Shown here: piece by piece, positions 3,940 through 6,467 of the stretch
Position numbering within the stretch: position 1 is the stretch's first letter
Layout: the number at the start of each line of letters is the position of its first letter
Source of the DNA: Bdellovibrio bacteriovorus HD100
Lineage (GTDB): Bacteria > Bdellovibrionota > Bdellovibrionia > Bdellovibrionales > Bdellovibrionaceae
DNA: 64,000 nucleotides
Direction of reading: 5' to 3'
NCBI RefSeq assembly: GCF_000196175.1
Contig: NC_005363.1
Location: forward strand, 3,410,001 to 3,474,000
Made by a program: the position numbers and the translations under genes
Notes under the pieces: model-generated
Told to the model about the DNA's origin: nothing
The model's database searches: none
The model's input: the letters and a program-made list of their open reading frames with translations, nothing else

Positions 3940-4470
3940 ATGAACCGCCTGCTTGTACTTGCCATGCTTTTATTCCCTGCTCTGTCCTGGGCCCATAACT
4001 GCCAAGAGTTTCTGACATCCGACTGGCCCGCTGACGAAGGTTACGCCTGCGAAGTCACGAAGCCGGACCTGGCCAAACTTCAAATGCACAAGGTGGAAGT
4101 CTGCATCGGTTCGGTGCCTTACCGCGATGGTCAGCGCTATGCCAAGGCCGAGCTGAAACACATCCCGTTGTCACAGTATGAAAACATCTATAATCGGGCC
4201 GAGGGTCTTCACACGAAGTTCCTGAGCTCCACCTACATCCACGCCTGGGCCGGTGAAGAAATGCAGGAATCCCCGGAGTTCCTGAAAGTGAATGCCCTGG
4301 AAGAGGGCTCCACCCTGACCTACACTCCGGATATCTGGAATCAACTGCAGTTGGATAAAAAGTCCCTGCAAGCCCGCCTTGTGACTCAGTCCCGCGAAGC
4401 GGCTTTGATATTCCAGAATGAGTGGCAAAAAATCTGGGACCTGCGCCTGAAATGTCAGAGAGTTTTCTGA
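3940..4470 (+). CDS. Secreted protein of unknown function
   Basis: The 176-residue product carries a clear Sec signal peptide with a probable cut after SWA (residue 18). The mature part contains four cysteines and no motif I recognise. AGGAG immediately precedes the ATG. A hairpin with a short T run follows the stop, so it is probably a single-gene unit. The product is expected in the periplasm or outside the cell. Confidence 0.8.
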   Translation: MNRLLVLAMLLFPALSWAHNCQEFLTSDWPADEGYACEVTKPDLAKLQMHKVEVCIGSVPYRDGQRYAKAELKHIPLSQYENIYNRAEGLHTKFLSSTYIHAWAGEEMQESPEFLKVNALEEGSTLTYTPDIWNQLQLDKKSLQARLVTQSREAALIFQNEWQKIWDLRLKCQRVF

Positions 4471-4485
4471 AAAAATCTTAAAAAG

Positions 4486-4508
4486 CAGGGCTAAAAACCG
4501 CCCTGTTT
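4486..4508 (+). terminator. Probable terminator after the secreted-protein gene
   Basis: CAGGGC (4486-4491) pairs with GCCCTG (4500-4505) over 6 bp, followed by TTTCC. The short T run makes it a modest terminator. Confidence 0.5.
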
Positions 4509-4622
4509 CCGATAATTTGTCGAATATGACACCTCCGCGCCGCGCAAATTTGTTTGTAAACGGTTGGTTTTCATTAAGTTGTTGCAACCACAGAATCTTT
4601 TGGAAATAACTTCATAGTGTTT

Positions 4623-4690
4623 CCCCGTATATGTTGCGAATAGGGCGCAGCGTTTCTACCAGGCACCTCAAATGCCTGACTATGGAGGTT
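4623..4690 (+). promoter_or_regulatory. Purine riboswitch, guanine type, controlling endonuclease I
   Basis: The stretch matches the purine aptamer in all parts. P1 is 4623-4629 paired with 4681-4688 (one bulged A at 4686, one G-U). P2 is GTTGCG (4633-4638) with CGCAGC (4646-4651), and L2 is AATAGGG. J2/3 contains TTTCTAC (4653-4659). P3 is CAGGCA (4660-4665) with TGCCTG (4673-4678), and L3 is CCTCAAA. J3/1 then reads ACTATG. Both loops are seven bases, and the GG of L2 can pair with the CC of L3. The base matching position 74 of the B. subtilis xpt aptamer is C (4680), which selects guanine rather than adenine. The 3' arm of P1 contains the ribosome binding site GGAGG (4684-4688), so ligand binding should block translation from GTG 4695. 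Confidence 0.92.
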
Positions 4691-4694
4691 CTTT

Positions 4695-5564
4695 GTGAAG
4701 TTGACCGCACTTTCTCTGCTGATGCTTGTGTCCACGCTATGTTGCACCTTGGTTCAAGCAGCTCCTTCTTCCGGCGATGTTCCTTATTATGGTGAAAAAT
4801 TCCACCACGATCTGGCTTCTGGAATTTCCAACGACGATCTGAAAAAGAATATTCAATTTGTCCTTCGCAGCTTCCACCTTCGTGTGAACGGCAGCTACGA
4901 TCAGATCGTAAACGGCTGCAGCGGCGACAACTGCTATCAGCATGTTTCTTTGGGCTACGACGGTGCTCGTACCTTCCTTCTGGGTTCTTTCTATTTGGTT
5001 GATGAAGGTCACGGCGACTATGCAGTGAAAGACGTTTACTGCGACTCTATCCGTGGCTCTGATGACTTCCGCGGCGGCAACGCGCCGGCTCCGGGCAGAA
5101 TCCCGGATGGCAACATCGTGAACACCGAACACACCTGGCCACAAAGCCGTTTCTCGGGTCGTCACAACAAGAACATGCAGAAAGCGGACATGCATCACTT
5201 GTACCCGACCGACAACGAAATGAACTCTATCCGCGGCAACAACCCTTTCGGTGAAGTTGTTCAGGACAGAAAAATCCTGAAATGCAAAGTGTCCCGCTTC
5301 GGTCGCGCTTCCCAAGGTGGAGCTGATGTGTTCATGCCGCCGGCAAATCACCGCGGCAACGTGGCTCGCGCTTTGTTCTATTTCTCTGTCAGATATGACC
5401 TGCCAATTGATTCCCGTCAGGAAGCGACTTTGCGCAAGTGGGCCAAAGAAGATCCACTCGATGACGAAGAAATCAGCCGCAACGACGCGATCCACAAGAT
5501 GCAAGGGAACAGAAACCCGTTCATCGACTTCCCGGGTCTTGAAGATTCTATCAGTGATTTCTAA
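4695..5564 (+). CDS. Secreted endonuclease I (EndA/NucM family)
   Basis: The enzyme cuts DNA and often RNA outside the cytoplasm. The 289-residue product has a signal peptide (cut near residue 23, VQA-AP). The family core is present: NTEHTWPQSRF, with His146 as the likely general base, and HHLYPTDNEMNSIRGNNPFG (residues 167-186), which supplies the metal-binding Asn. Cysteines at 75, 80 and 116 may form disulfides. The start is GTG 4695, seven bases after GGAGG. Expression appears to be gated by the riboswitch just upstream. In a predator, the enzyme would degrade prey nucleic acid, and guanine would be a plausible feedback signal. Confidence 0.93.
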   Translation: MKLTALSLLMLVSTLCCTLVQAAPSSGDVPYYGEKFHHDLASGISNDDLKKNIQFVLRSFHLRVNGSYDQIVNGCSGDNCYQHVSLGYDGARTFLLGSFYLVDEGHGDYAVKDVYCDSIRGSDDFRGGNAPAPGRIPDGNIVNTEHTWPQSRFSGRHNKNMQKADMHHLYPTDNEMNSIRGNNPFGEVVQDRKILKCKVSRFGRASQGGADVFMPPANHRGNVARALFYFSVRYDLPIDSRQEATLRKWAKEDPLDDEEISRNDAIHKMQGNRNPFIDFPGLEDSISDF

Positions 5565-5587: not shown

Positions 5588-6467
5588 AGGCGACAGGTAA
5601 AAAGCTTGTTGGAGAGGAGGCTGTGGAAGTCTCCTCTTTTTTTTGCTCTGCAGAGGTCTCGTACTTCACCAGCGTCCCGATGATATCCTGAAGCTGTTCA
5701 AACGGCGTCAGGTTCGGCGGCAGGTTGTCTTTCAGCTCCATCGTCAGCACCGGTGTTGAACGCTCCACCCACATGTAGCGCCCCAGGCTTCCCGGATAGT
5801 TCCCCAGAGATTTCCAAGGCAGATAATCAAACTTTGGCGGTGCTTTCACTTTCGGTCCGTCGTAATCCAAAACTTTGAGCGGCGTGTGGACAGACACGAT
5901 AAAGTCCGGCTGGAAGTCACCAAGGTGCTTCATCGCGCACTTGGTTTCAGGCTCGCTGCCACCTTCTTTACCCGGAAAACGGCGCGGATTGGAGCCCGTA
6001 GAGCGTCTCCACGCAGTCAAAGCCCCCGCATCCCAATCTTTGGTTGGGAAATTGCGATTGATATCAATCTTGTTCGCGTTGTAGCGGGTTTTGTATTTCA
6101 CACCATCCGGGTTCAGCACCGGAATCACACGCCAGGAATTGCGCGGGTCGATGCCTTCCAAACGCTCCATCCAGTAACGGCCCACGGTGCCTGCCGGCGT
6201 TTCATCCCCGTGAATCATACTGAACACCAGAACCTTTTTGGCTCCTGGTGTGGAAGAGATCTTTTCGTAGTGATAGATAGGACGACCTTCAGCGCTCACG
6301 CACTGAGTATCGATTTGCACTCTGGCACAGGCCTGTTGCAAAAGCTTGTCGTCCCAAGCTCCTGGAAATTTTTTGAGCTCATTGATACAGTCTTGCTGAA
6401 GATCAGGGAAGTTCGCCTTCGCCCCAACAACTGTCATAAGGATCGCGCTAAAAATTAATGCTTTCAT
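5577..6467 (-). CDS. Secreted M14-family zinc carboxypeptidase/amidase, MpaA-like
   Basis: The 296-residue enzyme has a signal peptide (cut near KAN, residue 19) and the full M14 active site: His86 and Glu89 (HGDE), Arg138 (NRNF), third zinc ligand His194 (SVHTP) and catalytic Glu244 (MELKD). NPDG at 119-122 is also typical. This arrangement resembles murein peptide amidase MpaA and related M14C enzymes, which cleave gamma-D-Glu-meso-diaminopimelate, but the exact substrate is inferred. I start at ATG 6467 because AGAGG precedes it. The C-terminal 30 residues are low-complexity. It is convergent with endonuclease I; both are likely exported hydrolases useful on prey. Confidence 0.88.
   Translation of the reverse strand: MKALIFSAILMTVVGAKANFPDLQQDCINELKKFPGAWDDKLLQQACARVQIDTQCVSAEGRPIYHYEKISSTPGAKKVLVFSMIHGDETPAGTVGRYWMERLEGIDPRNSWRVIPVLNPDGVKYKTRYNANKIDINRNFPTKDWDAGALTAWRRSTGSNPRRFPGKEGGSEPETKCAMKHLGDFQPDFIVSVHTPLKVLDYDGPKVKAPPKFDYLPWKSLGNYPGSLGRYMWVERSTPVLTMELKDNLPPNLTPFEQLQDIIGTLVKYETSAEQKKEETSTASSPTSFLPVALEH

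Follow-up and report, generated by a model that had tools for sequence, protein, structure and literature searches.

A purine riboswitch aptamer lies directly ahead of the secreted Endonuclease I gene bd3507 of Bdellovibrio bacteriovorus HD100, with the Shine-Dalgarno sequence of the gene inside its stem P1; its pocket bases are of guanine type, and the element recurs ahead of exported nuclease-type genes across Bdellovibrionota. It is likely a translational OFF switch with a guanine-class aptamer, belonging to a purine-hunger regulon of exported nucleases; ligand binding, the OFF direction and the feedback logic are inferred, without binding or reporter data. Positions given below are those of the window, the whole 64,000-nucleotide (64-kb) stretch of DNA that was analysed, unless another record is named.

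Anatomy of the aptamer and its ribosome binding site

A cmscan search of the window matched the Rfam Purine family (RF00167) at 4605-4702 on the plus strand over the full model, with 65.5 bits and an E-value of 3.4e-9, clearing the gathering score of 37 bits. The E-value was 9.5e-12 when only the 181-base region was searched, and no other RNA family was matched in the 64-kb window. An earlier note, made from sequence alone, had read a guanine-type purine riboswitch here and named an Rfam purine search of the region as a check; the covariance-model score of that search is significant. The features are listed below, with aptamer bases (U22, U51, C74 etc.) following xpt numbering.

4605-4702, plus strand, purine riboswitch aptamer and expression platform (covariance model, 65.5 bits)
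4622-4629, plus strand, 5' strand of P1, partner of the ribosome binding site, pairing with 4681-4688
4630 (T), plus strand, U22 (sequence)
4633-4651, plus strand, P2 hairpin, strands 4633-4638 and 4646-4651 (covariance-model alignment, fold)
4639-4645, plus strand, loop L2, AATAGGG, inside the P2 hairpin (sequence)
4652-4659, plus strand, J2/3, GTTTCTAC, with U47 at 4653 and U51 at 4657 (T), ligand pocket
4660-4678, plus strand, P3 hairpin, strands 4660-4665 and 4673-4678 (covariance-model alignment, fold)
4666-4672, plus strand, loop L3, CCTCAAA, inside the P3 hairpin (sequence)
4679, plus strand, A73 (sequence)
4680, plus strand, C74, the guanine-pairing base, which distinguishes guanine from adenine riboswitches (sequence)
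4681-4688, plus strand, 3' strand of P1, TATGGAGG, containing the Shine-Dalgarno sequence GGAGG (4684-4688)
4695, plus strand, GTG start codon (sequence)
4695-5564, plus strand, exported Endonuclease I of 289 aa with a GTG start, identified as bd3507
5611-5639, plus strand, terminator-like hairpin 3' of bd3507 (consensus scan; alone no evidence of function)

Base-by-base reading gave six pairs each for P2 and P3 and seven bases for both L2 and L3, with GG and CC available for a loop-loop contact. U22, U51 and C74, at 4630, 4657 and 4680, are all guanine-type pocket bases, and the U74 of adenine riboswitches is not present, a C being found at 4680. P1 is imperfect, with one G.U pair and A4686 mismatched or bulged, but four of the five GGAGG bases were nevertheless paired in a ViennaRNA fold of the leader. 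Six nucleotides separate GGAGG from the GTG, which stands 14 nt past U75. The folding energy of the leader was unremarkable compared to shuffled sequences (z -1.35), so it is the covariance model and the comparisons between genomes, not energy, that carry the case. The three stems, both 7-base loops, the TTTCTAC core, C4680 and the coordinates claimed in the earlier note all held against the sequence and the covariance model, as did its placing of the GGAGG within P1, A4686 apart. Its guanine-type assignment was likewise supported by the covariance model and by pocket bases that are invariant in 148 of 148 elements (see below). By sequence, the aptamer is a canonical, ordinary member of the guanine class, with guanine binding inferred in the absence of binding data.

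It could be argued that the ligand is not guanine but 2'-deoxyguanosine, xanthine or another purine. In favour of this, 2'-dG-II riboswitches have been reported ahead of endonuclease I and ComEC (PMC8872408), and a DNase yields deoxynucleosides, which would make 2'-deoxyguanosine a logical signal. Against it, the 2'-dG classes carry C51, and class II also has a G-C pair at the P1 junction and a two-base J3/1 insert (PMC8872408), whereas U51, C74 and U75 are invariant across the scorable elements and the window element shows A73 and C74 followed by the A21-U75 pair, with neither a J3/1 insert nor a G-C junction pair. We consider this alternative unlikely, and a 2'-dG-type pocket in particular was rejected on U51 (4657) and the missing J3/1 insert.

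Terminator/antiterminator control is the usual mode of Firmicutes guanine riboswitches, and the aptamer might accordingly be supposed to act on transcription. The short distance from U75 to the start codon and the lack of any plus-strand terminator-like site between aptamer and gene make this very improbable, and transcription termination was rejected for the nuclease class because too little room is left before the start codon.

Further upstream, a G+C-rich hairpin (4486-4505) was observed between the preceding gene (3940-4470) and the riboswitch, which scored as a minus-strand terminator-like site and has TTT after it when read on the plus strand. This arrangement suggests a separate promoter for bd3507. 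A consensus promoter scan found no convincing promoter upstream of bd3507, with one match where 0.9 was expected.

Exported nucleases behind the element across Bdellovibrionota

Searching 369 Bdellovibrionota genomes with RF00167 gave matches in 93, above the Rfam cut-off in 92. The 148 sites fetched and the window made up 149 elements, which were grouped by the first downstream gene:

HNH-like, 76
Endonuclease I, 38, window included
PD-(D/E)XK-like, 11
EEP/DNase-I-like, 6
EndoU, 2
DUF3465-like, function unknown, 4
EamA transporter, 11
No ORF downstream, 1

Genes for exported known or predicted nucleases of five kinds thus stood behind 133 of the 149 elements, and by a simple rule a hydrophobic N-terminus was present in 136 of the 137 non-transporter proteins. 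Every one of the 24 genomes of the genus carries a nuclease-linked copy, with Endonuclease I in 22 and the HNH type in 23. In one family of the phylum (f12), the element was found in just four genomes, and in three of these it precedes the transporter; so few nuclease-linked elements there indicate that not every relative depends on the switch for its lifestyle and that the link to nucleases does not hold throughout the phylum.

The identities of these nucleases differ in firmness. Representatives of Endonuclease I, EEP and EndoU were identified by Pfam, one of the two EEP representatives falling just below the cut-off. For the HNH-like family, the two members scanned out of 76 gave no Pfam match above cut-off, only a weak match to HNH_5 being found; a conserved motif (IDHxIPLxxGGxNxxxNLWP) is present, and a confident structure model (pLDDT 93) has HNH domains as its best solved matches (E 0.05). 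The PD-(D/E)XK-type proteins carry the motif GELD...EVK, and their model, of moderate quality (pLDDT 68), best matched NucC and restriction-type nucleases (E 0.015). The gene identity is therefore firm for Endonuclease I, while the HNH-like and PD-(D/E)XK-like nucleases are predictions that have not been demonstrated.

Comparison of the elements showed that U22, U51, C74 and U75 are invariant in all 148 that could be scored; U22, U51 and C74 are the bases contacting guanine (PMC9295807). Of 136 nuclease leaders, 132 have their start codon 11-18 nt from U75, and in 133 the Shine-Dalgarno sequence begins inside P1. These geometry counts are approximate, as start codons were assigned automatically and only roughly in a few cases (L080, L085, L121 and L123 among them, with the J3/1 register misassigned). 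In 98 non-redundant leaders, the six P1 pairs from 19-77 to 14-82 were paired in 69.7% of cases, compared to at most 51.4% when the strands were slid and 54.2% (maximum 59.2%) when strands were swapped between relatives, indicating that P1 pairing is kept as the sequences change.

These data bear on the possibility that the window element is a decayed or chance look-alike without a regulatory role, for which the imperfect P1 and the unremarkable folding energy might speak. This is all but ruled out by the E-value of 3.4e-9, the invariant pocket, the P1 pairing retained despite sequence change, the recurrence ahead of unrelated nuclease folds and the nuclease-linked copy in each genome of the genus.

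The layout was also sought without regard to genes, by scanning 84,980 species genomes for the aptamer core and then for GGAG and ATG at set distances, a scan from which near relatives of the genome analysed may be missing. Forty layouts were found, and the next protein was of exported nuclease type in 39, the exception being an element of Fusobacteriaceae, behind which a 16-aa ORF lies. Bdellovibrionota, including Pseudobacteriovorax and Oligoflexales, accounted for 38 of the 39 nuclease layouts, the other (L203) being placed only as Proteobacteria. A further unrelated fold, an S1/P1-type nuclease, was found behind the P1-buried layout in two records (L208, 7414-7998; L216, 3973-4875). Such a scan offers a gene-blind route to uncharacterised exported nucleases.

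Together, our data suggest that the purine element likely governs a set of unrelated exported nucleases as a regulon across Bdellovibrionota, with regulation itself inferred. This regulon was not seen in the earlier note.

Two further classes of downstream gene were observed. Four DUF3465-like exported proteins (L057, L071, L106 and L146) stand behind the same riboswitch, and by this association they are candidates for nucleases or for proteins that assist in digesting nucleic acids. The elements before EamA transporters (L040, L100, L119, L141, L142, L144, L153, L154, L172, L174 and L178) mostly have GTCTCTAC as J2/3, and their start codon is some 47 nt away from P1, which is itself extended in several cases (GTTAATA...TATTAAC). 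From the spacing and the extended P1, their expression platform must differ from that of the nuclease class.

Bd3507 and the predicted OFF switch

The product of 4695-5564 matched PF04231 (Endonuclease_1) with an E-value of 7.2e-33 and 114.7 bits against a curated cut-off of 25, and the solved Vibrio-type structural relative 1oup with an E-value of 3.3e-14. Exactly three Endonuclease_1 genes were found in the genome, and bd0934, bd1244 and bd3507 are given as Endonuclease_1 genes in the published HD100 table (PMC3593177); because the chromosome order of the three fits this table, the gene was identified as bd3507. Bd3507 is secreted into the bdelloplast, its transcript is maximal at 1-2 h, and its deletion raises extracellular DNase activity, with the greatest increase when bd0934 is also deleted and without a clear transcript cause (PMC7925074). 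No riboswitch is mentioned in that expression and secretion work (PMC7925074). In a proteome study, Bd3507 protein was raised at 3 and 4 h (FC 5.35 and 5.17), and amidophosphoribosyltransferase, of purine synthesis, was strongly down during predation (PMC12546842). The claim of the earlier note that the output is a secreted endonuclease I thus held, on the Pfam match, the published secretion of Bd3507 and the same layout across the phylum.

The genome has only one other purine riboswitch, on the minus strand at 2004836-2004933 (about 2.0048 Mb). The gene behind it encodes a 159-aa exported protein of the HNH-like family (L003, 3363-3842, minus strand), which is not among the 20 nucleases tabulated for HD100 in the literature.

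Ligand binding stabilises P1 in the purine riboswitch class, and with the Shine-Dalgarno sequence located in P1 the layout therefore predicts that guanine represses translation. In the proposed mechanism, guanine (or hypoxanthine) plentiful in the cytoplasm would be bound and would stabilise P1; as the 3' strand of P1 serves as the Shine-Dalgarno sequence, translation of the exported nuclease would be blocked. At low guanine, P1 would open, and the nuclease would be made and secreted, freeing nucleotides from nucleic acid of prey or of the environment. The inference would be that these bacteria produce nucleases only when short of purines. Members of the phosphoribosyltransferase and nucleoside phosphorylase families are present in the genome, making free guanine a plausible metabolite. 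The suggestion of the earlier note that guanine released from prey turns the nuclease off is compatible with this only as inference in three parts, namely guanine binding, the OFF direction and the prey source.

In an equilibrium folding model, Shine-Dalgarno exposure was lower with P1 formed in 67 of 117 leaders, a small effect, and no large change in exposure was found between the P1-open and P1-formed states, so that the OFF direction rests on anatomy. Conversely, guanine might activate nuclease translation, prey nucleic acid thereby inducing its own digestion. Supporting such an ON switch, Bd3507 is produced during consumption of prey nucleic acid (PMC7925074, PMC12546842), and the guanine-II riboswitches found in Paenibacillus have been predicted to act as ON switches (PMC9295807). 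However, the Shine-Dalgarno sequence itself lies in the ligand-stabilised P1 in 133 of 136 nuclease leaders, and a non-exhaustive search found no conserved alternative pairing that the ligand could break, leaving an ON switch with very little support.

Two published observations can be set beside the OFF switch. The bd3507 mRNA peaks at 1-2 h and the protein is up at 3-4 h, a lag that fits release upon depletion but may simply reflect a secreted protein building up. Deletion strains show raised DNase activity without a clear transcript change, which fits the OFF-switch model as well, compensation by other nucleases being another possibility. If the riboswitch model is right, the 159-aa HNH-like protein is the likely source of the extra DNase.

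A bolder reading is that the guanine riboswitch serves as a phylum-wide governor of digestion and a metabolite timer of the predatory cycle. Several unrelated exported nuclease folds would each have been placed under one translational purine sensor, and the attack on prey nucleic acid would be throttled at purine plenty and released once prey purines run out. Our judgement falls slightly against this extended version. The narrower OFF-switch reading already opens two questions to testing, namely how digestion of prey DNA is timed in Bdellovibrio and why bd3507 deletion increases extracellular DNase activity, and it provides a natural translational switch for Bdellovibrio genetics.

Relation to known riboswitches

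The literature searched gave no account of exported nucleases under the control of a guanine-class riboswitch, although a prior mention cannot be excluded; a paper on lysine riboswitches (PMC5584792) names both Bdellovibrio and the purine riboswitch and draws no link between them. As far as could be checked, the nuclease regulon and the P1-buried ribosome site are new, whereas the aptamer class itself is known.

Burial of the ribosome binding site in P1 occurs in SAM-I riboswitches, which differ from the window switch in aptamer, ligand and genes; in a survey of this layout it was commonest in TPP, preQ1 and SAM-I riboswitches, and purine riboswitches were not named. The 2'-dG-II riboswitches of Bacteroidetes share the scaffold and occur ahead of endonuclease I and ComEC, both acting on DNA (PMC8872408), which softens the claim of the earlier note that such an output is unusual. 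They sense 2'-deoxyguanosine and carry C51, a G-C junction pair and a J3/1 insert, sequence features that the window element lacks.

With the guanine(-I) class (RF00167, xpt-pbuX type), the window element shares the three-stem junction, the GG/CC loop-loop contact, U22, U51 and C74 and, by prediction, repression by guanine. Known members of that class commonly control purine synthesis, salvage and uptake (PMC9295807), whereas here the genes controlled are those of exported nucleases, and P1 itself serves as the ribosome binding site. In predators and their relatives, the presence of the switch before several unrelated nuclease folds points to repeated recruitment. Different from textbook guanine riboswitches, which regulate intracellular purine metabolism, the sensor here appears to govern extracellular digestion.
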